From positions 1 to 13,038 of the forward strand of contig CACYDQ010000492.1 of the NCBI GenBank assembly GCA_902773215.1: DNA of 13,038 nucleotides, in the 5' to 3' direction. A program made the translations under genes and the position numbers. Below are positions 1,250 through 12,659 of the stretch, one piece after another. This DNA is from an uncultured Spirochaetaceae bacterium. Its GTDB lineage: Bacteria > Spirochaetota > Spirochaetia > Treponematales > Treponemataceae. The notes beneath the pieces were generated by a model. That model had not been told where the DNA came from, searched no databases, and worked only from the letters and a program-made list of their open reading frames with translations. Every line of letters starts with the position of its first letter. The first letter of the stretch is position 1.

Positions 1250-2359
1250 CTATTCGTAGTAGACTTCTACACTACCTAACGATAAAGCACCCTCTGATCT
1301 CAGAATTATTGAGTCCGAATTGATATTTGTTATTGTTGCAGTGCCTCCGCTGATAGCTATTGTGCCTTTATCCGTTCTCAGCTTATTTATATCATTCCAG
1401 CTTTGTGTAACTTCAACACGCGTAATTCTTTCTCCCATCGGAGTTGTAATCGTAGCAATTTTGCCGGAGCCGCTGTGTAGATAAATGCCATCGCCCTGAA
1501 CATCCGTAGCAGTCAGCTTGGCATGGGTTTCTGTGTATTCACAGGTTCCCGCGGTCAGCCTAAAAGATACACTACCCGGAACTATTGTAACAACCGTAAG
1601 CTCGTAGCTTGCGGTATTTGTCGCATAAGTGTAGTTCGCGCTGTCCGCCACGGTTGCGGTGATGGAGGCGGTTCCTGCGGCGACGATTGTAACTTCACCC
1701 GTGCCGGCATCCACTGTCGCAACCGCAGTATTTGACGAGGCATAGCTGACGGTGCCGTCGCCTGTGTTTGTAAGCGCGTTGGTAAAGGCACTGGCACTCG
1801 TCGCCTTTGTGACGGAGCTTGTCGCATAGCTTATCGTCGCAGCCGGTAACGATACCGTGAGCGTGTAGCTTGCGGTGTTTGTCGCGTAGGTGCAGGTTGC
1901 GCTGTCCGCCGCGGTCGCGGTTATGGTGGTCGATCCTGCGGCGACGATTGTGACTTCGCCTGTGCCGGCATCCACTGTCGCAACCGCAGTATCTGACGAG
2001 GTGTAGCTGACGCTGCCGTCGCCTGTTTTTGTAAGCGCGTTGGTAAAGGCACTGTCTGTCGTCGTCTTGCTGACGGTGCTTGTCGCATAGCTTATCGCCC
2101 CAGCCGTCGGTGGCGTTGGAGTGGGTGACGGCGTGGGTGTGGGTGTCGGCGTGGGTGTGGGTGTCGGGGTAGGCGTGGGCGTCGGTGTGGGTGTGGGTGT
2201 CGGTGTGGGGGTACTGCCGGAAGTGCTGCCGGTGAGCGGCGCGTTCTCTGATTTTTCGCCCCTGTACCAGTCCTCGTTCCAGTAGTCGCAGGACGCGACC
2301 ATCATGACCGACGCGGCAATGGCGCATGCCGCCGCCAGCCGTAAGAGAGTTTTCTTCAT
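1250..2359 (-). CDS. Lipoprotein with Thr-Pro linker and two Ig-like (Big_2-type) repeats
   Basis: A 369-residue envelope lipoprotein. Residues 1-23 form a signal peptide (MKK, hydrophobic core) ending in V-A-S-C24, a relaxed lipobox typical of spirochaetes; C24 would be lipidated. Residues 50-83 are an almost pure Thr-Pro repeat, a stiff linker lifting the rest from the membrane. Two near-identical domains follow (about 88-169 and 175-256, period 87 residues), each with the A-V-A-T-V-D-x-G-T-G-E-V-T-I-V-A-A-G pattern of bacterial Ig-like group 2 domains. A C-terminal region of about 105 residues, predicted beta-rich, is not recognised. An AAGGAG ribosome site 9 nt upstream supports the start, and TATAAT at 2393-2398 (minus) is a good -10 box. 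Ig-like lipoproteins are usually surface adhesins or polymer binders; the ligand here is unknown. It is a single gene unit with its own terminator. Confidence 0.85.
   Translation of the reverse strand: MKKTLLRLAAACAIAASVMMVASCDYWNEDWYRGEKSENAPLTGSTSGSTPTPTPTPTPTPTPTPTPTPTPTPTPTPSPTPTPPTAGAISYATSTVSKTTTDSAFTNALTKTGDGSVSYTSSDTAVATVDAGTGEVTIVAAGSTTITATAADSATCTYATNTASYTLTVSLPAATISYATSSVTKATSASAFTNALTNTGDGTVSYASSNTAVATVDAGTGEVTIVAAGTASITATVADSANYTYATNTASYELTVVTIVPGSVSFRLTAGTCEYTETHAKLTATDVQGDGIYLHSGSGKIATITTPMGERITRVEVTQSWNDINKLRTDKGTIAISGGTATITNINSDSIILRSEGALSLGSVEVYYE
1592..2098 (-). repeat. Two 261-bp direct repeats inside the lipoprotein gene
   Basis: The Ig-like domain is encoded twice with high nucleotide identity (for example the stretch starting at 1681 recurs at 1942, exactly 261 bp away). 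High DNA identity suggests recent duplication or ongoing gene conversion; unequal recombination would add or remove whole domains in frame. Confidence 0.8.
2108..2212 (-). repeat. Thr-Pro coding microsatellite
   Basis: Roughly 17 hexamer units encoding Thr-Pro, mostly GT-GGG/GT-CGG on the plus strand. The unit length keeps the frame, so slippage would change linker length rather than switch the gene off. Confidence 0.8.
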
Positions 2360-2756: not shown

Positions 2757-3713
2757 CTACAGCTTCTCTATTTCAGCAACGGACAAACCCGTTATCTGCG
2801 AGACCTGGGATACAGGCAGCCCCATCGCAAGGGCCCTGCGGGCAGATTCCTTGAAGCCCTCATCACGTCCCACCTTGCGCCCCTTTTCCATACCCTCGTC
2901 AAGGCCTTCTCTCCGGGCAGCCCGTAAGGCCTGAGATGCGGTCGCGCTCATGGAGCTCCAGATGATACTGGGTCAGCCACAAGTCGCGGTCCGCGCTGAT
3001 TGATGACAGTGATTTCTGTGCCTGCATAAGTCCCTCCTTCTTGCTTGTCAACACATCTATGATGCCCTTCTTCTCTGGATTGTCAGCGTCTTTCAAGAAA
3101 ATGGCCCAGTTCTCAAGGTCCGTGTTGGTCTCAAGGCTCCCTTCCAGTTTCACGGCCTCGGGAAGCTCTATGAATATGATGTTGAGCGAGTTTGAAAGCT
3201 CCCGACCGTCCTTTGTCCTCATCGCATATCGGCTCACGGGCGTCTTCTTCACTTTGCGGTTGCGGGTTTCGACACGTTTTTGGAGACGTATTCAAAGTCA
3301 AGGACACTTATCTGGTAGACGGTCGGAGCCTTCTCCCAGCCGTCCCCTTTTTTCAGGTAAGTCGTCTCAAGACGGGCAACCTGGTACTCGGCCCGCTTGC
3401 CGTAGTCGTACTGCTAGTTGAATGCCTGCATTTCTATGTCCGCCGATAAACCGTCGTCAAACTCGCAGGAGATGTCATAACTGACATTCCTCTGTCCGAT
3501 AAAGCCGATGGGAGCATCGTTGTTGCGAATCTCAAAATGCGTAATCTTCCGCTCGGTCGCGGCTTCCAGAAAGGACTGCAGCGCGCCCTTCGACTCCGGC
3601 GTGTCCTGCGTGAACAGGGCCTTGAATGTGGAGTCGATGCGCGGGTTTAGCAGTGCGCCCGTCCCGGCCTGGGAAGCGTATTCCTCTTCGTTCCTGTACT
3701 CTGCCTGTGCCAT
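2757..3713 (-). pseudogene. Rpn-family recombination-promoting nuclease / putative transposase, degraded
   Basis: Reassembling the frames gives about 318 residues, normal for the PD-(D/E)XK family known as Rpn or T_den_put_tspse. Part one (3713-3414, 99 aa) begins MAQAEYRNEE and has the N-P-R-I-D-S-T-F-K opening and a D80 ... E94-M-Q96 active-site pattern (E-x-Q instead of E-x-K). An in-frame TAG at 3414-3416 then interrupts it, and the same frame continues with QYDYGKRAEYQVARL. A doubled GT at about 3272-3275 shifts the frame, giving PVSRYAMRTKDGREL and LNIIFIELPEAV down to RISGL. A one-base insertion near 2925 shifts it back, giving the Arg/Gly-rich coil and a short helix-turn-helix-like tail (MGLPVSQVSQITGLS) to 2757. 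Three lesions make it a pseudogene unless sequencing errors are involved. The start codon lies 6 nt after TATACT with no ribosome site. Confidence 0.85.
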
Positions 3714-5182: not shown

Positions 5183-6316
5183 ATGGAACGGCTGACCTAC
5201 ACGCTCATGAACCGCGAGACTCCCCTCTGCGACTTCATCATCGAAGGCGAGGGCGAGCTGGAACTGTGCAAAATCACGAGGGAACACCGGAAGCTGCCTT
5301 TCTGGTGCGCGGACATCGATTCGTGGAACGCGAACAGGAGCGCGGCCAAGCACCGGGAGCACGTGAACAGAATCCTCGAGATGTGCGGGGGCAAGACAAA
5401 GAGCGGCTTCATCGCGCTGACCCACTGCCTCTCGCTGACCGACACGCTCTGGGTGAAGAGCGACCGCGAGGACGTGAGCTGGGCGCAGGTCAACCTCTAC
5501 GAGAATAACTTTGACGAGGTTATTTCCAAATTATCTTTCGACGGCAACGGGCTTTTCGGCATCCAGATGTCCACGACTTCCCCCGAGCTGACGACGGACG
5601 GGGCATACGACAAGTGCTGGCTGAACGAAAAGGACGGAATCCACCTGATAAAGACCGGGAGCGAGGGGGGCAGGAACACGGGCCTTGAGCCTTACGGGGA
5701 AGTCCTCGCGAGCCAGGTCTTCGAGCGGATCTGCGATTCGGTCACGTACACGCTCAGGAAGTACGATGGCAGGGTTGTCTCGGACTGCAAGCTCTTTACC
5801 TCGCAGGAATTCGGATACCGCCCGATTGCGCTGTTCTACAAGGATAAGCTGACCCTCCCAAGGCTGATTGAAATCTACCGGGAGGCGGGCTGCGAGGACG
5901 CGTTCCGCCGCATGGTCGTCGCCGACTGCATCACGCTCAACTGCGACCGGCACTTCGGCAACTTCGGCTTCCTCGTCAACAACGAGAGCTTTGAGCGGGG
6001 CCTGCTGAACCCCTGCTTTGACTTCAACATGGCCTTCGTCCCCTTCGCTGAGGAAGGATTCGACTTCGGTAATCCTGAACTGGACTTTGACGGATACCTT
6101 TCGCAGCGCGGCCCCGTCATCGGCAGCGACTACGTTGCCCCCGCCCGCGCCATCCTCACGCCGGAAATACGGAAGTGCGTCGAGGAAATCCGCGAGATAG
6201 CGCTCACCGTCCCCTGCGACCAGAAGTTCACGGAGAAGCGGCTCGCGCAGATGAACATGATAAAGAACGTCCAGTGCGAGCGCATTCTGGGCTTCGATGC
6301 CCGCTGGGAGTTTTAA
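5183..6316 (+). CDS. Stand-alone HipA-like Ser/Thr kinase
   Basis: A 377-residue protein with the HipA kinase signature. H154-L-I-K157-T-G carries the ATP-binding lysine, Y171-G-E-V-L-A-S-Q fits the helix with the conserved Glu, N253-C-D255-R-H-F-G-N260 is the catalytic loop (Asp base, metal-binding Asn), and C278-F-D280-F-N is the metal-binding Asp. The N-terminal MERLTYTLMNRE-x-L-C-D-F fits the first strands of this family. HipA proteins phosphorylate protein targets (glutamyl-tRNA synthetase for E. coli HipA) and act as toxins when not held by HipB. No HipB-like DNA-binding antitoxin gene lies on either side here, so a toxin role is unproven; eukaryote-like solo kinases such as CtkA are an alternative. 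The start is set by the leaderless promoter at 5148-5176. A hairpin terminator follows. Its last 15 codons and downstream region reappear, diverged, at 7634-7785 in front of cas9. Confidence 0.85.
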   Translation: MERLTYTLMNRETPLCDFIIEGEGELELCKITREHRKLPFWCADIDSWNANRSAAKHREHVNRILEMCGGKTKSGFIALTHCLSLTDTLWVKSDREDVSWAQVNLYENNFDEVISKLSFDGNGLFGIQMSTTSPELTTDGAYDKCWLNEKDGIHLIKTGSEGGRNTGLEPYGEVLASQVFERICDSVTYTLRKYDGRVVSDCKLFTSQEFGYRPIALFYKDKLTLPRLIEIYREAGCEDAFRRMVVADCITLNCDRHFGNFGFLVNNESFERGLLNPCFDFNMAFVPFAEEGFDFGNPELDFDGYLSQRGPVIGSDYVAPARAILTPEIRKCVEEIREIALTVPCDQKFTEKRLAQMNMIKNVQCERILGFDARWEF

Positions 6317-6325
6317 GGAACAAAA

Positions 6326-6350
6326 GGAGGGCCTCAGCTCTCTTTTCTCA
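6326..6350 (+). terminator. Terminator of the hipA-like gene
   Basis: GGAGGGC-CTCA-GCTCTCT (two G-U pairs) followed by TTTTC, ten bases behind the stop codon. The duplicate at 7687 has the same hairpin with full Watson-Crick pairing. Confidence 0.6.
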
Positions 6351-6359
6351 TGTGAACCA

Positions 6360-6409
6360 TTTATATTCCGGAGGAATATAAACGCATTTTTCGGAGCCGG
6401 ACAGCTCCG
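6360..6409. repeat. Perfect 10-bp dyad and adjacent hairpin, copy 1
   Basis: TTTATATTCC-GGA-GGAATATAAA (6360-6382) is a perfect inverted repeat with a 3-nt centre. CGGAGC-CGGACA-GCTCCG (6392-6409) follows. Both recur in the copy at 7721-7769 with changed loops but preserved pairing. Confidence 0.7.
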
Positions 6410-6490
6410 TGTCAGCAGGTTGACGAATCAGAACGGAAGGTACGCTTTATATTATTTGCGTAGACGAACGGAAGACGGAGATGGAAATAG

Positions 6491-6607
6491 AAAACAAACA
6501 AGGCTTTTGACGATTACGGATTGCATTCGTTTTTAGAGAAAAGATTTTTAATCGCGAAGGATTCATACAATACACTAATTGTAAACGGAAATTCAAAAAG
6601 TGCGTGA
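6491..6607 (+). pseudogene. Possible C-terminal remnant of an unknown gene
   Basis: The frame KTNKAFDDYGLHSFLEKR continuing F-L-I-A-K-D-S-Y-N-T-L-I-V-N-G-N-S-K-S-A has a protein-like composition, but it follows a stop at 6488 and has no start codon or ribosome site. It lies in the AT-rich insert that separates the two parts of the duplicated module. No family recognised; it may be chance. Confidence 0.2.
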
Positions 6608-6831
6608 GGGGATAATTCCGAATTAATCTATTAATCAGCACATCCGCTATACTGCAATTTTACGTGTTTGTCAGATTTCGATTTCACTGGAACGAAAGAC
6701 ATCACCCGGGCGCATGAAAGAGTCAGCAAGGCTGTATATATGTCTGGGACAGGCGGCAAAGAAGAGCAAATCTTACTGCAAAAAGCTTTCCGACAAGCGG
6801 GGAAAGTCCTGTAGCAGGGCTGTTTTCATCT

Positions 6832-7032: not shown

Positions 7033-7061
7033 TGTACAACCCGGGCGGACTGTGCTACAAT
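7033..7061 (+). promoter_or_regulatory. Promoter of the deleted Rpn copy (leaderless type)
   Basis: TGTACA (7033-7038), 17-bp spacer, TACAAT (7056-7061), six bases, ATG (7068). No ribosome site. Confidence 0.5.
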
Positions 7062-7067
7062 AGGTTT

Positions 7068-7591
7068 ATGGAAGAAAAAGACTTCAAGAGCGAAGAGGAA
7101 TACGTCTCACAGGCCGGCACGGGCGCGCTACTCAATCCCCGCGTGTGAGCCGCTACGCCATGCGGACCAAGGACGGAAGGGAGCTTGCCAACGCGCTCAA
7201 CATCATCTTCGTAGAATTGCCAAAAGCCAAGGGGCTTGAGGACAGCCTTGAGACGAACACCGCTCTTGAGAACTGGGCGATATTCCTGAAGGATGCTGAC
7301 AATCCCAAGAAAGCGGATGTCATACGGAAACTTACGGACAAGGAGGCAGGGCTTATGAACGCACAGAAATCACTCTCGTCAATCAGCGCGAACCGCGACC
7401 TGTGGATAGCGCAGTACCATCAGGAGCTCCACGAGCGGGACCGCATATCGGGTCTTGAAGCTGCCCACAATAATGGAGTGAGGGACGGAAAGATACAATC
7501 GGCAAAGAATGCCCTCTCGATGGGCCTTTCTCCGGCACAAGTCTCCAAAATCACGGGGCTTTCCGAGGAGGAGATAAGAAAGCTCCAGTAA
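7068..7591 (+). pseudogene. Rpn-family nuclease/transposase, internal-deletion derivative
   Basis: ATG 7068 opens MEEKDFKSEEEYVSQAGTGA-LLNPRV and stops at 7146-7148. The adjacent frame (from 7145) gives VSRYAMRTKDGREL, the NIIFVELP motif, the NWAIFLKDADNP block, the HERDRISGL motif and the tail SMGLSPAQVSKITGLSEEE to 7591. Compared with the copy at 2757-3713, the segment from the NPR-I-D-S-T-F motif to just before VSRYAM is missing, about 125 residues including all the nuclease active-site residues. The joint (CCCCGC-GTGTGAGC) also carries an extra GT that breaks the frame. The C-terminal 147-residue piece could still be translated from GTG 7145, but without catalytic residues it cannot be a nuclease. 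It is a dead derivative next to the cas9 locus, still with promoter and start. Confidence 0.8.
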
Positions 7592-7641
7592 GGAGGCCGG
7601 ACTTATGAACGCACAGAAATCACTCTCGTCAATCAGTGCGA
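7590..7641 (+). repeat. Out-of-place 52-bp Rpn fragment
   Basis: AAGGAGGC-GG-CTTATGAACG through AATCAG-GCGA repeats 7340-7391 with about four differences, exactly 250 bp downstream. It then joins the hipA-like tail copy within a shared CAG-GCGA string, a microhomology joint. Confidence 0.8.
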
Positions 7642-7686
7642 GCGTATTCTGGGATTCTATGCCCGCCGGGAGTTTTAAAAACAAAA

Positions 7687-7710
7687 AGAGAGCCGTAGCT
7701 CTCTTTTCTC
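7687..7710 (+). terminator. Hairpin terminator ahead of cas9 (copy 2)
   Basis: AGAGAGC-CGTA-GCTCTCT, a perfect 7-bp stem, followed by TTTCTC. It would insulate cas9 from transcription coming from the Rpn remnant. Confidence 0.55.
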
Positions 7711-7720
7711 ATGTGAACTA

Positions 7721-7769
7721 TTTATATTCCAGAGGAATATAAAAGCATTTTGCGGAGCCGAAAGGCTCC
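7721..7769. repeat. Dyad and GAAA-tetraloop hairpin, copy 2
   Basis: TTTATATTCC-AGA-GGAATATAAA (7721-7743) and GGAGCC-GAAA-GGCTCC (7754-7769). The second is a classic GNRA tetraloop stem. Both differ from copy 1 only in ways that keep or improve pairing. Confidence 0.7.
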
Positions 7770-7775
7770 TTGTTA

Positions 7776-7808
7776 GCAGGTTGACAAGATAAATTAATCA
7801 GTACGTCC
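7776..7808 (+). repeat. Left inverted repeat flanking the cas9-cas1-cas2 module
   Basis: GCAGGTTGACAAGATAAATT continuing AATCAGT-ACGTCC. It matches the minus strand of 12640-12602 at 31 of 33 bases, except that the right copy has six extra bases (TATAAT) before ACGTCC. The bracketed segment is about 4.87 kb. Confidence 0.8.
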
Positions 7809-7907
7809 ACTATACTACATTCGCGCGTATTTGTCAAATTCCATCTTCACCATGACAAAAAATTCTCCTGGATGTGTGAGGACTGAACTCCGCCAAGCTG
7901 CTGAATC
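7809..7907. other. cas9 upstream region
   Basis: It starts with CTATACTAC and shares scattered homology with 6645-6700. I see no repeat array, no clear anti-repeat and no T-tract hairpin. A tracrRNA gene cannot be recognised here without the repeat sequence. Confidence 0.4.
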
Positions 7908-7936
7908 TGGAACACCATGTATAATCTTGTTATAAT
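7908..7936 (+). promoter_or_regulatory. cas9 promoter (leaderless type)
   Basis: TATAAT at 7931-7936 lies six bases before ATG 7943, with a weak TGGAAC at 7908-7913 (17-bp spacer). A second TATAAT lies at 7920-7925. No Shine-Dalgarno sequence is present. Confidence 0.5.
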
Positions 7937-7942
7937 AATGCT

Positions 7943-10900
7943 ATGAACTATCGTCTTGGTCTTGATTTGGGCACGAATTCCATCGGGTGGGCAGTGTATT
8001 CGCTGGACAGCGGGAATGAGCCGTGTGAGCTTGTCGATATGGGGGTCCGCATATTCTCGGACGGGCGCGACCCCAAGACAAAGGAACCCCTTGCGGTGGC
8101 ACGGAGAACTGCACGCGGCCAGCGCAAGCTGATTTACCGCCGGAAGCTCCGCAGGAGGGCGATGTTCCGCCTCTTGCAGTCGCAGGGCCTGTTCCCGGCG
8201 AGCAAGGACGAGGCGCGGAAGCTGAAGCTGCTGAACCCCTACCAGCTCCGCATCAAGGCACTTGATGAGAGACTTGAGCCGCCCGAGCTTGCCCGTGTTT
8301 TGTTCAACCTGTCGGTCAGGCGGGGATTCAAAAGCAACCGCAAGGACGGCACTGACAAAGATGAGCCTGCTGTCTCAAAGTCCGGGGAAAAGCTCTCCCA
8401 GGCCGATATGAGCAATGAGCTTTCGAAGACCGTCTCGGCATCCGGCTGCAGGACGCTCGGGGAATTCTTATGGAAGAACCAGGACAAGAACCATGGAATC
8501 CGCTTTGTCCCGGGGAGGATGCCGTACTATCCGCTCAGGCAGATGTACGTTGACGAATTCAACGCAATCCGCGCCGTGCAGGAGCCCTTCTACAAAACGC
8601 TGGACTGGGATGCGGTCTTTAAGGCGGTTTTCTTCCAGCGGCCGCTGAAGCCGCAGGAGCGTGGCAAATGCCAGTACATGGCGGACAAGGAGCGCACGTT
8701 CAAGGCCATGCCCTGCGCCCAGAGGCTCCGGATGCTTCAGGAAATCCGCAACATGGATTACCAAAATGAGCGCGGGCAGAAAATTCCTCTCTCGGAGGAC
8801 GACGAGAAGACGCTTATTTCCCTGCTGGACACGAAGGAAAAGGTTCCGTTCGACGCTTTCAGGAAAGCCCTGAAATTATCCCCAGCCTGCACATTCAACC
8901 TGGAATCCGAGAGCAGGACAAGCCTGAACGGAAACGTGACCGCCGTGAAGCTCCGCAGCAAAAATCGTTTCGGGGCTCTGTGGGATACGCTGCCGCTTGA
9001 GGAGCAGGATGCCGTCGTGGAAAAGCTCATCACTGCGGATGAGGACAGGGAAATCCTCGACATGCTCGCAAAATACCCCCTCAGCGACGAGCAGAAGGAG
9101 TCCGTCGTAAAGCTTCAGCTCCCGACCGGTACGACAATGCTCTGCAAGGAAGTCTCGGAACGGCTGGTTCACAAGATGGAGGAGCTGGGCTGCAACTATA
9201 CGACCGCCGTGCAGGTCCTCGGCTACAAATATGCTGACCAGAACGTGGAGAAATACGACCTGCTTCCCTATTACGGGAAGGTTCTCGTCGGCTCCACGAT
9301 GGGAGGCAACCCCTCGGAGCCTGAGGACAAGCCTGAGCGCAGGTACGGCAAAATCAGCAACCCGACGGTCCATGTCGCGCTCAACCAGACCCGCACGGTC
9401 GTCAACGCCCTCATAAAGGAATACGGGAAGCCAGCACAGGTTGCCGTGGAGCTCTCGCGCGACCTGAAGGCAAGCCGAGAGGCCAAGGACGCGATGGTCA
9501 GGAAGCAGAACGAGAACAAGAAGAGGAACGAAATACTGAACAAGAACATCCGCGAGGGCTACGGCATCTCCTATCCCAACCGCAATGACCGCCTGAAGTT
9601 CCGCCTGTGGGAGGAGCTCGGGGCCTCAGGTTTGCCCAGGCGGTGCCTGTACTGCGGCAAGACGATTTCCGGGGCAGAACTGTTTACGAAGAATATAGAA
9701 ATAGAGCACATCCTGCCCTACAGCCGGACGCTGCTGGACGCGGAGTCCAACCTGACCGTAGCGCACGCGAGCTGCAACGCATTCAAGAAGGAACGCTCGC
9801 CATACGAGGCCTTTGGCTCAAGCCCGTCCGGCTACAGTTGGGCAGGAATCCTTGAGCGGGCGAACCAGCTCAAGAACCCCGCCAAGCGCGGGAGGTTCGC
9901 AATCGATGCCATGGAAAGCTTTGATAAAAACAGCGGCTTCATCGCCCGCCAGCTGACGGACAACGCCTACCTTTCAAAGATGGCACTCAAGTATCTGCAC
10001 TGCGTGTGCGACAAAGTGTGGTCGGTGAACGGGGGCATGACCAAGCTGCTCCGCGACAAGTGGGAGATAGACTCCATCCTCAAGCGCAGGATTGACGACA
10101 AGGAGATTGCGCATTTTGAGCTGAAGGGAGAGCAGATTGGCGAGTACAAGAAGAACCGCTACGACCACCGCCATCACGCGCTGGACGCGTCCGTAATCGC
10201 GCTCATAGACCCTTCCCTGGTAAAGGAGATTTCGACGCTCAACGCTCGGTCGCAGAAAAACAGGATAGAGGTTCCCCCTATGGCCGTCCCGCGCATGGAG
10301 CTGCAGGAGAAGGTGCGGCACATCGTCGTGAGCTTCAAGCCCGACCACGGGGCAGAGGGCAAGCTTTCCAAGGAGACGCTCCTGGGGAAAATCAAGCGGG
10401 AGGAGGTCGTAGACATCGCCAAGCTTGAGGAGAAGGACATTCCCCTCATCAAGCATGAAAAAGTCCGCGCGGACTTCGAGCGGGAACTGGCAGGAACAAA
10501 GGACATCAAGCTTGTCCGCAAGGCACTCAAGGACATCTACCCGCAAGTGAAGCTCTACCGGGAGTATTTTGTCGCCCGGGGTCCCATAACGAGCCTTTCC
10601 GAGAAGAACATCGGTGACATCGTGGATGCCAAGATCCGTTCCCGCCTGCAAAGCTTCGCCAACTCCCACGAGGGCGGGAAGTTCGAGGATGTCATTCAGG
10701 CATTCAGCGAGGAGACGGGGATAAAGAAAGTCCGCTGCCTGAACCATGGGCAGAAGCCTATTGCCATTAATGGAAATGTTCCTCGTTATTATGAACCCGA
10801 AGACTATTTTGCCGCAATAATCTGGACGATTCCTTCAAAGAAAGCTGGGGCGAAGCCAACGTACGAAGCCCAGTATATCCGCAGGAATGAGGTTGACAGG

Positions 10901-11263
10901 AATGGTAAGCCGAAAGTCGAAGTAATCGAGGCGTGGAAGAAGACACATCATCCCGCAGCAAAGTCGTCATCATTTGTCTTGCATAAAGAAGACTACTTGG
11001 AATTCAGCGAAAATGGTGTTTGGTATAAATGCAGGATAGCAGAATTTTCTGCAACGAATAACAAGCTAGTTATAATGCCTATATATGCTGCAACAAAGGC
11101 AAAAGAATACTCAAATTGGCTTGTTGCCACTACGGACTCCATGTTAGAACCTTGTTGGAAAATGAAAAACGGGAAAAATCTCATTTCCGTCAACGTCCTC
11201 TTCGGTGAGAAGCAGGCCCGTTTCATCACGGTGAACCCGATAGGCAGGGTTTTCAGAAAATAA
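7943..11263 (+). CDS. cas9: CRISPR-associated endonuclease Cas9, type II-C
   Basis: 1106 residues, within the compact II-C size range. RuvC-I: LGLDLGTNSIGWAV with D8. Arg-rich bridge helix: about 51-80 (ARRTARGQRKLIYRRKLRRR). Recognition lobe: about 90-480. RuvC-II: V-A-V-E503-L-S-R-D-L. HNH: C568-L-Y-C571 zinc pair, E588-H589-I-L-P-Y-S with catalytic H589, then N603 and C611-N612. RuvC-III: D741-H-R-H-H745-A-L-D748-A. All residues for cutting both strands are present. Wedge and PAM-interacting regions follow, and the last ~150 codons are clearly AT-richer than the rest. Cas9 uses crRNA:tracrRNA to cut invading DNA next to a PAM. The GVRIFSDGRDP-K-x-x-LAVARR block resembles the alphaproteobacterial-type II-C group (from memory). 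It is first in the operon; cas1 follows after 35 bp. No array lies within the window. The start is set by the leaderless promoter. Confidence 0.97.
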   Translation: MNYRLGLDLGTNSIGWAVYSLDSGNEPCELVDMGVRIFSDGRDPKTKEPLAVARRTARGQRKLIYRRKLRRRAMFRLLQSQGLFPASKDEARKLKLLNPYQLRIKALDERLEPPELARVLFNLSVRRGFKSNRKDGTDKDEPAVSKSGEKLSQADMSNELSKTVSASGCRTLGEFLWKNQDKNHGIRFVPGRMPYYPLRQMYVDEFNAIRAVQEPFYKTLDWDAVFKAVFFQRPLKPQERGKCQYMADKERTFKAMPCAQRLRMLQEIRNMDYQNERGQKIPLSEDDEKTLISLLDTKEKVPFDAFRKALKLSPACTFNLESESRTSLNGNVTAVKLRSKNRFGALWDTLPLEEQDAVVEKLITADEDREILDMLAKYPLSDEQKESVVKLQLPTGTTMLCKEVSERLVHKMEELGCNYTTAVQVLGYKYADQNVEKYDLLPYYGKVLVGSTMGGNPSEPEDKPERRYGKISNPTVHVALNQTRTVVNALIKEYGKPAQVAVELSRDLKASREAKDAMVRKQNENKKRNEILNKNIREGYGISYPNRNDRLKFRLWEELGASGLPRRCLYCGKTISGAELFTKNIEIEHILPYSRTLLDAESNLTVAHASCNAFKKERSPYEAFGSSPSGYSWAGILERANQLKNPAKRGRFAIDAMESFDKNSGFIARQLTDNAYLSKMALKYLHCVCDKVWSVNGGMTKLLRDKWEIDSILKRRIDDKEIAHFELKGEQIGEYKKNRYDHRHHALDASVIALIDPSLVKEISTLNARSQKNRIEVPPMAVPRMELQEKVRHIVVSFKPDHGAEGKLSKETLLGKIKREEVVDIAKLEEKDIPLIKHEKVRADFERELAGTKDIKLVRKALKDIYPQVKLYREYFVARGPITSLSEKNIGDIVDAKIRSRLQSFANSHEGGKFEDVIQAFSEETGIKKVRCLNHGQKPIAINGNVPRYYEPEDYFAAIIWTIPSKKAGAKPTYEAQYIRRNEVDRNGKPKVEVIEAWKKTHHPAAKSSSFVLHKEDYLEFSENGVWYKCRIAEFSATNNKLVIMPIYAATKAKEYSNWLVATTDSMLEPCWKMKNGKNLISVNVLFGEKQARFITVNPIGRVFRK

Positions 11264-11269
11264 GCTTAT

Positions 11270-11312
11270 ACCCTGCCCCGCATACCGATAATAAAAGTAT
11301 GCTGAGCAGGGT
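11270..11312 (+). promoter_or_regulatory. 43-bp dyad over the cas1 start, containing a -10 box
   Basis: ACCCTGC-ccc-GCATAC (11270-11285), an 11-nt loop cgataataaaa, then GTATGC-tga-GCAGGGT (11297-11312): 13 perfect base pairs with a symmetric 3x3 internal loop. The cas1 ATG (11299-11301) is inside the right arm. GATAAT (11287-11292) in the loop lies six bases before ATG, and no good -35 box is seen. Confidence 0.6.
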
Positions 11313-12231
11313 TCTGGAGGTTCATGAGGAAAACCGCTATCTGTCTCTTAGCCGTGGCTTTGCCGTCATCCAGCAGGGGCAGGGGCAGGAGGAGCTGGGC
11401 AGGGTGCCGATTGACGACATCGGGGTGCTCTTGCTTTCGGCCCAGGGAGTCAGCGTCTCCAAGAACCTTCTGAACGCCATTTCCGAGAAAGGAGGCGTTA
11501 CGGTGCTGTGCGGAAAGAACTATGCCCCCCAGAGTATGGTCCTGCCCGTCTACAGCCATTACCTGTTCGCAAGGGTCATGAAAAGCCAAGTTGATGCCTC
11601 TGTTCCCTTCAGGAAGCGGGTCTGGCAGCAGATTGTCACAAAGAAAATCAGGAACCAGGCTCGAGCCCTACGGCTCTGCGGCAAGGAAGAAGAAGCCGTC
11701 CTCATCGACAAGATAGCGACGATGGTGAAGTCCGGCGACCCGGACAACAGGGAGGCATACGCCGCCAAGATGTACTGGAAGGCCCTGTTCGGCAAGGACT
11801 TTGCCCGCGACAGGAATCTGCCGGGCATCAATTCCTTTCTGAACTACGGATACGCGGTCATGCGGGCTTCCATGGCGCGGGCGGTATGTGCCAGCGGCCT
11901 GCTCCCGGCCCTCGGAATTCACCATGACAATTACCTGAACCAGTTCGCGCTTGCAGACGACCTCTTTGAGCTCTACCGCCCGATAGTGGATTGCATTGTC
12001 TTTGATATGTGCCCGAAAGACGGGGAGGAGCTGGGGCACGGGCAGAAAACAAAGCTTACGAACGCGTTATGGATAAAGCTGCATACTTCGCAGGGGGACT
12101 CCCCGGCCTTCCAGAGCATGCAGTATCTGACGGCTTCCTATGTCCACGCATTGGAAGATGGAAAAGCGGCCATTGATTTGCCTGAATGGGAGGGAAATGC
12201 GGATGGCGATGCCGGAGCTGAACAGGTATGA
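11299..12231 (+). CDS. cas1: CRISPR-associated integrase Cas1, type II
   Basis: 310 residues. The N-terminal beta domain (LSRVLEVHEENRYLSLSRGF, then I-D-D-I-G-V-L-L-L) is followed by the helical catalytic domain. The metal ligands are E152 (N-R-E-A-Y-A-A-K-M-Y-W), H209 (G-I-H-H-D-N) and E224 (L-A-D-D-L-F-E-L-Y-R-P-I-V-D), spaced as in S. pyogenes Cas1. With Cas2 it forms the integrase that captures protospacers and inserts them next to the leader. The C-terminal ~25 residues are acidic and poorly conserved. It starts 35 bp after cas9 with no ribosome site, inside a strong dyad, so expression may be controlled separately from cas9. It overlaps cas2 by 29 bp, so cas2 is probably translationally coupled. 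Confidence 0.95.
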   Translation: MLSRVLEVHEENRYLSLSRGFAVIQQGQGQEELGRVPIDDIGVLLLSAQGVSVSKNLLNAISEKGGVTVLCGKNYAPQSMVLPVYSHYLFARVMKSQVDASVPFRKRVWQQIVTKKIRNQARALRLCGKEEEAVLIDKIATMVKSGDPDNREAYAAKMYWKALFGKDFARDRNLPGINSFLNYGYAVMRASMARAVCASGLLPALGIHHDNYLNQFALADDLFELYRPIVDCIVFDMCPKDGEELGHGQKTKLTNALWIKLHTSQGDSPAFQSMQYLTASYVHALEDGKAAIDLPEWEGNADGDAGAEQV

Positions 12232-12538
12232 GCTTATGTGGATGCTGGTTTTGTTTGATTTGCCCGTCGTTGAGAAAACAGAGCGGAAAGCCGCGACGGA
12301 ATTCAGGAATTTCCTGCTGGACAACGGATTCTCCATGGTGCAGTACTCCATCTACACCAAGCTTTTCTCCGGCAAGGATGCCTGTGAGAAGTATTACAAG
12401 CTCATCGGCAGGAACTTGCCTTCCGAGGGGAAAGTCGATATCATAACGATAACGGACAAGCAGTATGAGAACATCATCAGTTACACGGCCGCAGAGAAAA
12501 CGCCCAAAAAACGGCAGGAACAGCTCCTTTTGTTCTGA
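12203..12538 (+). CDS. cas2: CRISPR-associated protein Cas2
   Basis: 111 residues from the chosen start. The ferredoxin-like fold begins L-M-W-M-L-V-L-F-D19-L-P-V with the conserved Asp. F-L-L-D-N-G-F-S-M-V-Q-Y-S-I-Y is the dimer strand, and G-K-V-D-I-I-T-I-T-D-K-Q-Y-E is the usual second half; the tail is Lys/Gln-rich. Cas2 dimers bridge two Cas1 dimers in the spacer-integration complex and are structural in this role. Three in-frame ATGs lie close together (12197, 12203, 12209). GGGAGGG (12188-12194) is best spaced (8 nt) from 12203, hence this start. It overlaps the cas1 3' end. It is the last gene of the operon; no csn2 or cas4 follows, which with the Cas9 size supports subtype II-C. Confidence 0.93.
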   Translation: MAMPELNRYELMWMLVLFDLPVVEKTERKAATEFRNFLLDNGFSMVQYSIYTKLFSGKDACEKYYKLIGRNLPSEGKVDIITITDKQYENIISYTAAEKTPKKRQEQLLLF

Positions 12539-12547
12539 TTTTTGCCC

Positions 12548-12613
12548 AAAAAATAATACGTCCTATGCACTTCAATCCCTTGTCTGGGAAAGAAATACAT
12601 CGGACGTATTATA
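12548..12613 (-). ncRNA. 61-bp hairpin with U-tract: structured minus-strand RNA or terminator
   Basis: Minus strand: ATAATACGTCC (12613-12603) pairs with GGACGTATTAT (12563-12553). Inside it ATGTATTTC pairs with GAAGTGCAT, using two G-U pairs, and TCCC pairs with GGGA around an AGACAA loop. TTTTTT follows at 12553-12548. On the plus strand the two wobble pairs become A-C mismatches and there is no T-tract, so the element appears built for the minus strand. It could end the gene at 12722-13038 or be a small RNA driven by the overlapping promoter. Confidence 0.6.
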
Positions 12614-12640
12614 ACTGATTAATTCATCCTGTCAACCTGC
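12602..12640 (-). repeat. Right inverted repeat flanking the cas9-cas1-cas2 module
   Basis: Minus-strand GCAGGTTGACAGGATGAATT continuing AATCAGT-TATAAT-ACGTCC. It equals the left copy at 7776-7808 apart from two substitutions and the six inserted bases. It lies 63 bp behind the cas2 stop codon and forms the first arm of the hairpin at 12553-12613. Confidence 0.8.
12608..12635 (-). promoter_or_regulatory. Consensus-like promoter pointing toward the cas2 3' end
   Basis: Minus strand TTGACA (12630-12635), 16-bp spacer, TATAAT (12608-12613). Both hexamers are perfect. Transcription would start near 12600 and meet the T-tract at 12548, an RNA of about 50 nt. The left inverted repeat lacks the -10 box. 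Confidence 0.55.
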
Positions 12641-12659
12641 CCTGCGGTCATTGGAGCCC

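Follow-up and report, generated by a model that had tools for sequence, protein, structure and literature searches.

Inverted repeats around a spirochaete cas9-cas1-cas2 operon as the probable anti-repeat and repeat of a type II-C CRISPR-Cas locus

Introduction

A cas9-cas1-cas2 operon framed by inverted repeats raises the question of whether the repeats are the ends of a movable unit or parts of the CRISPR-Cas (clustered regularly interspaced short palindromic repeats and CRISPR-associated proteins) system itself. Such an operon is found in an uncultured, Treponema-like spirochaete (GenBank assembly GCA_902773215.1, contig CACYDQ010000492.1), the whole 13,038-nucleotide (nt) stretch being termed the window here. 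A first-pass annotation considered such frames to be unknown for type II loci and suggested that a module of about 4.9 kb may have moved, or may invert, as a unit. Comparison with other genomes of the genus points with near certainty to a different answer: instead of marking the ends of a mobile or invertible element, the two arms would be the anti-repeat and the repeat that a type II-C CRISPR-Cas locus is expected to have.

The inverted repeat pair

The inverted repeat is real and above chance. Read directly, the left arm runs from 7776 as GCAGGTTGACAAGATAAATTAATCAGT-ACGTCC and the right arm, on the minus strand from 12640, as GCAGGTTGACAGGATGAATTAATCAGT[TATAAT]ACGTCC; the arms agree at 25 of 27 bases and, after a 6-base gap, at 6 of 6, which bears out the first-pass match of 31/33 plus a 6-base insertion between 7776–7808 and 12602–12640. 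A repeat search of the window returns the 27-nt arms (7776–7802 and 12614–12640) at 93%. The 27-mer with up to three mismatches has two sites in the window versus 0 of 200 dinucleotide shuffles, and two sites in the whole assembled genome (2.69 Mb). Both arms do enclose cas9-cas1-cas2 (7943–12538), as was first described.

The right-hand feature is 36 nt long (12643–12608, minus strand) and does not end at 12640. The 6-base 'insertion' TATAAT is, judged by its sequence context, the -10 box at the 3' end of this repeat. The six matching bases ACGTCC look incidental: on the right they are the start of the leader, and the left flanks of relatives lack them.

The left arm would be the anti-repeat forming the 5' end of a trans-activating CRISPR RNA (tracrRNA) that is transcribed divergently, and the right arm would be the cas2-side CRISPR repeat with its own sigma-70 promoter, directed at the leader hairpin and cas2; the array in this contig would have shrunk to one repeat. 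The arms would be alike because the tracrRNA must base-pair with the repeat of every CRISPR RNA (crRNA), with processing presumably by RNase III, and their inversion would follow from transcription of each against the direction of the cas operon, one from either end of it, together with the complementarity of anti-repeat and repeat. The plus strand carries repeat sense at the left arm and repeat antisense at the right arm. Anti-repeats and CRISPR repeats are near-copies by definition, and a II-C array adjoins cas2, in the orientation opposite to that of the cas operon (PMC3936727), so that, contrary to the first description, type II loci are expected to sit in such a frame.

Repeats, arrays and rearrangements in relatives

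In relatives of the same genus, the 36-base repeat of the family, GTTGCAGGTTGACNNGANAAATTAATCAGTTATAAT, is carried in arrays beside cas2. Ten loci, those whose contig includes both array ends, hold 7 to 35 repeats (L037, 26; L040, 33; L042, 35; L043, 24; L046, 29; L047, 9; L050, 24 plus a solitary one; L052, 10; L053, 7; L055, 25), and the arrays of L041, L049 and L051 run off their contigs. Array spacing is 65 to 67 bases, with a single 136-base gap in L046. Of the 14 relatives whose contig holds cas2, 13 have the last repeat and the leader hairpin next to this gene; in the exception, L048, the sequence there is N. At the cas2 end the flank is conserved and the repeats are intact, in agreement with the entry of newly acquired spacers at the last repeat of II-C arrays (PMC12080349). 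In a pattern search of 146 genus genomes, matches concentrate in those with a close Cas9 (16 of 17, versus 4 of the 129 others). Two exact repeat patterns, which would miss variants, gave 0 matches each in viral contigs.

These arrays bear directly on the supposed 4.9-kb module with the 33-bp inverted repeats as its ends. The locus is indeed set among different genes in most relatives; among 20 left flanks compared, similarity at E 1e-6 is found only for L034/L035, L035/window, L046/L047 and the duplicate records L036/L044. For L041, L049, L051 and the window, the right-hand flank is too short for a judgement. Also, cas1-cas2-array is inverted relative to cas9 in G063 (L040), and in G068 an orthologous rhomboid–hipA site and cas9 lie on separate contigs. 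However, the right-hand element in relatives is one of 7 to 35 array repeats, not an end, and up to 35 repeats lie past the position of the right copy. The G063 inversion begins in the short cas9–cas1 gap and past the array, not at the tracrRNA, and the G068 match past hipA ends at 6355, within the tracrRNA terminator region, not at 7776. Relatives yielded no clean empty site at the 33-bp repeats; the G068 site without the locus has its scar in the tracrRNA terminator region. Terminal inverted repeats of a mobile module are thus rejected by the relatives' arrays and by breakpoints away from the 33-bp repeats, and that explanation is hardly credible. On the sequences compared, the CRISPR system moves and rearranges within the genus, yet none of the observed cases has the 33-bp repeats as its ends. 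In L040 (9133–13403), where cas1-cas2-array lies reversed behind cas9, an unrelated ORF (open reading frame) stands between cas9 and the oldest repeat.

The first-pass alternative, regulatory copies such as leader or tracrRNA promoters, pointed in the right direction: the right arm would be a promoter-bearing CRISPR repeat containing TTGACA-16-TATAAT, and the left arm the tracrRNA anti-repeat. Promoters within repeats are known in II-C systems generally (PMC12080349). Mere promoter duplication does not fit the left arm: this copy lacks TATAAT, the tracrRNA promoter lies outside it at 7837–7809, and complementarity is the feature kept between species. That both copies are mere promoter duplicates is exceedingly improbable.

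Solitary repeats are also seen in relatives. One in L064 (G080; 1495–1530, minus strand), in a genome without a match to the window Cas9, has TTGACC-16-TATATA just before an ORF of 63 amino acids (aa), and may be a promoter. Another, in L067 (G105; ~1495–1530, minus strand), has TTGACC and TATAAT; this genome likewise has no match to the window Cas9, and no ORF of at least 60 aa begins directly after the repeat. The solitary repeat of L050 (G107; 7218–7253, plus strand) is 808 bases outside the array and immediately precedes an ORF of 166 aa that has a ribosome-binding site.

The predicted tracrRNA and its pairing with the repeat

From ~7802 on the minus strand, the predicted tracrRNA comprises the anti-repeat, two successive hairpins and a terminator whose end is near 7676 (Table 1). 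In the 18-locus alignment, all cells of its 27 pairs are paired, 9 pairs are changed on both sides versus 4.1 in shuffles, and four of five structural measures lie above all 500 shuffles. The alignment took 18 of 21 candidate rows, omitting L045 (extra hairpin sequence), L054 (N-masked) and L059 (separate contig, longer hairpin); L044 was not taken, as it is the same contig as L036. The anti-repeat is upstream of cas9 in 18 of the 19 distinct relatives examined, the exception, L053, having only 425 bases ahead of its cas9 match. An Rfam scan of the window at E 1 gave no match, and the tracrRNA call therefore rests on the alignment made here. As a motif scan of the region gives four promoter-like sites (1.9 expected) and three terminator-like sites (1.6 expected), the signals assigned to the tracrRNA rest on position and conservation. 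The tracrRNA start appears to lie beyond the position of the repeat's TATAAT. A complete-looking tracrRNA is also seen in L068 (G145; 1501–1627), in a 99% complete genome without a match to the window Cas9 and with no cas match in 3 kb.

The repeat and anti-repeat of one species fit each other better than those of different species: 365 pairs are summed over 14 species, and 0 of 20000 permutations are as high. Pairing energies give the same outcome (14 species, 20000 permutations). In the window, the solitary repeat pairs with the tracrRNA at -44.4, and the lineage form of the repeat at -44.8. Several points weigh against the repeat/anti-repeat reading. The permutation test ignores species relatedness, for the L050 repeat its own anti-repeat is no better a partner than others, and the 'further pair types' measure of the tracrRNA is not above shuffles (245/500). 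Also, the window has one repeat and no spacer, so that its array is one that we infer from relatives.

The cas genes and assignment to type II-C

By its predicted genes and tracrRNA, the locus is filed as type II-C, with the array missing or unassembled. RuvC and HNH are recognized in Cas9 by profile matches and by motifs (LGLDLGT at 5, VAVELSR at 500, EHILPYS at 588 and HHALDA at 744), a type II Cas1 and a Cas2 are encoded, and the tracrRNA has an anti-repeat complementary to the repeat. The orientation and the 12/12 promoter positions, both read from sequence, would place an array opposite to the cas operon with a promoter in the repeat, and relatives have the repeat–spacer arrays. No second Cas1 is found elsewhere in the assembled genome. 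As for csn2 and cas4, the ORF list of the window has no further cas-sized ORF after cas2, the right flank there being 500 bases with its short ORFs unscanned. Among solved structures, the best sequence relatives of the window Cas9 are Cas9 chains, 9ar4 and 6kc8 among them.

The ratio of nonsynonymous to synonymous substitution rates (dN/dS) of cas9 against two close relatives is 0.094 and 0.099 over 881 and 870 of 1106 codons, coverage being partial because both relatives' contigs end inside cas9; these are whole-branch averages, uninformative about the time after array loss. For cas1 and cas2, dN/dS against the relatives used is saturated and gave no value. Overall, the locus is a new member of a known II-C kind, and its novelty is low.

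Table 1. Features of the window around the cas operon (MFE, minimum free energy).
Feature	Position	Strand	Support
Second, degenerate tracrRNA copy, body	6312–6424	-	87.6% over 153 nt to intact copy
Insertion of ~205 nt breaking anti-repeat of second copy	6425–6629	.	no similar stretch in fetched loci except own
Second tracrRNA copy, head and promoter region	6630–6687	-	74%
hipA-like gene tail, repeated beside intact tracrRNA	7634–7678	+	duplicate of 6272–6316
Predicted tracrRNA gene (anti-repeat, two hairpins, terminator)	7676–7802	-	18-locus alignment; MFE -39.2, z -5.48
Predicted tracrRNA terminator hairpin	7683–7708	-	terminator scan; helix 4 of covariation analysis
Predicted anti-repeat (left copy)	7776–7802	-	pairs with lineage repeat 27/27, two G-U
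Predicted tracrRNA promoter, TTGACA-17-TATAGT	7809–7837	-	11/12 consensus positions; TTGACA kept here in relatives
cas9, 1106 aa	7943–11263	+	TIGR01865 E 2.8e-169; RuvC_III and HNH_4 matches
cas1, type II	11299–12231	+	TIGR03639 E 3.1e-77
cas2, domain part	12236–12538	+	TIGR01573 E 1.7e-18, PF09827; listed ORF opens at 12140
Conserved leader hairpin, followed by U-run 12548–12552	12553–12612	-	15 loci; MFE -34.0, z -8.87
Predicted promoter inside repeat, TTGACA-16-TATAAT	12608–12635	-	12/12 consensus positions; hexamers in relatives
Solitary CRISPR repeat, first three bases altered	12608–12643	-	36-mer match at 4 mismatches

The leader hairpin

In 15 loci, the leader hairpin directly follows the cas2-side repeat, and its outer arm starts within the repeat. 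Eleven of its 17 pairs are changed on both sides, and all five measures lie above all 500 shuffles. The hairpin would be a terminator of array transcripts, shielding cas2 from antisense run-in by array promoters; this is a role that we infer, as the output of a simple terminator scan does not include it. A narrow literature search found no earlier description of such a covarying hairpin for the leader end of II-C arrays. The terminators studied in PMC12080349 are upstream of the array, whereas the hairpin here is at the leader end and starts within the last repeat.

In RNA begun at the last repeat, the part of the hairpin that is left, without the outer 11 pairs, folds at -17.6 (z -3.02). It is conceivable, though quite unlikely, that the locus is kept without immune memory, with Cas9 (dN/dS about 0.1), tracrRNA and leader retained after loss of the array, that its lone repeat promoter now does no more than drive a short RNA into the leader hairpin and that the leader is a start-site-dependent terminator. 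If so, RNA from upstream repeats would include the whole hairpin and terminate there, and RNA from the last repeat would start in the 5' arm of the hairpin and lack the 11 outer pairs beside the U-run; the last repeat's promoter would then be the only one to read into cas2-cas1. Lone-repeat RNA escaping the hairpin would be antisense to cas2-cas1, and a feedback from array state to acquisition genes would be possible.

The single repeat

The single repeat may reflect a true collapse of the array or an effect of assembly. The contig retains cas9, cas1, cas2, the tracrRNA and the leader hairpin. The window repeat begins with AGG, whereas the family begins with GTT; this includes the close relative G075, which matches at 89% over a 242-base stretch of cas2, leader and repeat and has the window's repeat variant but with the GTT start. 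The oldest repeats are altered in L040, L050 and L053, and 5'-truncated repeat remnants were seen by eye beyond the arrays of L043, L046, L047 and L052. In II-C arrays, mutations in the oldest repeats are reported to be frequent and to lie mostly within the first 15 bases (PMC12080349). The altered 5' bases, as in the relatives' oldest repeats, suggest recombination of the oldest with the newest repeat, by which the array would have collapsed.

Alternatively, the assembler may have skipped a real array or joined the leader to an unrelated flank, so that the single repeat would be an artefact. This is possible but rather doubtful. The genome is fragmented (523 contigs, 72% complete), arrays are often at contig ends in relatives (L041, L049 and L051), and the flank past 12643 is just 395 bases. 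However, the contig reads through the repeat, and exit from a consensus repeat would not yield AGG in place of GTT; altered or 5'-truncated oldest repeats also occur in relatives, and the flank past the repeat encodes a protein with relatives in 54 of 145 other genomes. A pattern search with up to three mismatches found no further repeat copies beyond the two in the assembled genome, at the completeness just given.

L048 was considered as a second array loss and dropped, as the bases after its one repeat are N. In G075 (L056, 3020–3392), only matched ends of cas1 (271–310) and cas2 (54–100) are left, yet the leader and repeat are intact.

The duplicated module beside the hipA-like gene

The left copy had been described as part of a duplicated hipA-like module, which was taken to argue for spread of the short sequence. 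By sequence comparison, this module is a second, interrupted tracrRNA copy together with the tail of the hipA-like gene (Table 1), and the argument does not hold. The hipA-like match is under the Pfam cut-off (20.6 versus 30.5); the Rpn-like ORF between the tail copies is below the NCBIfam cut-off (46.9 versus 52.1) and above that of Pfam.

In G068, whose Cas9 is 93% identical, the rhomboid and hipA orthologues stand together on one contig, in a site matching the window at 92% over 1.9 kb. The match extends 39 bases past the hipA stop, through a tracrRNA-terminator-like hairpin. By eye, no such hairpin follows the hipA stop in six other genomes with a full-length hipA orthologue (83–85% identity). 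The tracrRNA would once have adjoined hipA in G068 too.

Two broken Rpn/PDDEXK-like copies lie in opposite orientation at 2757–3713 and 7061–7641, with 75–83% similarity piece by piece and an internal 52-nt repeat at 7340/7590. At 2512–2561, the 10-base unit GCTGTATGGA is present in five tandem copies.

Comparison with known systems and significance

The II-C system of Neisseria meningitidis has 36-nt repeats with inner promoters. The present locus is like it in its short Cas9 family and unlike it in the repeat sequence and in having an array of one repeat. N. meningitidis is mentioned as similar in PMC3656092, the source for Campylobacter jejuni. As in the C. jejuni II-C locus, only cas9-cas1-cas2 and a tracrRNA are present; the C. 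jejuni arrangement of a promoter per repeat, with a -10 box at the repeat 3' end and about one RNA per spacer, is also similar (PMC3656092). Unlike C. jejuni repeats, which end in an extended -10 (GGTAAAAT; PMC3656092), repeats of the window family contain both hexamers, TTGAC(A/C/T)-16-TATAAT, with TAAAAT in L051. The position of the tracrRNA upstream of cas9, running away from cas9, is a further difference from C. jejuni. The conserved cas2-end flank and the altered oldest repeats at the far end resemble II-C arrays in which spacers are added at the last repeat and the first ('extra') repeat is mutated (PMC12080349).

A false lead, that of a bracketed, mobile Cas9 module, is thereby removed: ordinary parts of a known system were misread as a frame, and the possible loss of the array with intact genes is the one unusual point. 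The guide-RNA parts of a Treponema II-C family are now given (repeat, tracrRNA, promoters and leader hairpin), with variants in ~18 species. The array loss, if real, would offer a clear example of a CRISPR locus that has intact genes but no memory.

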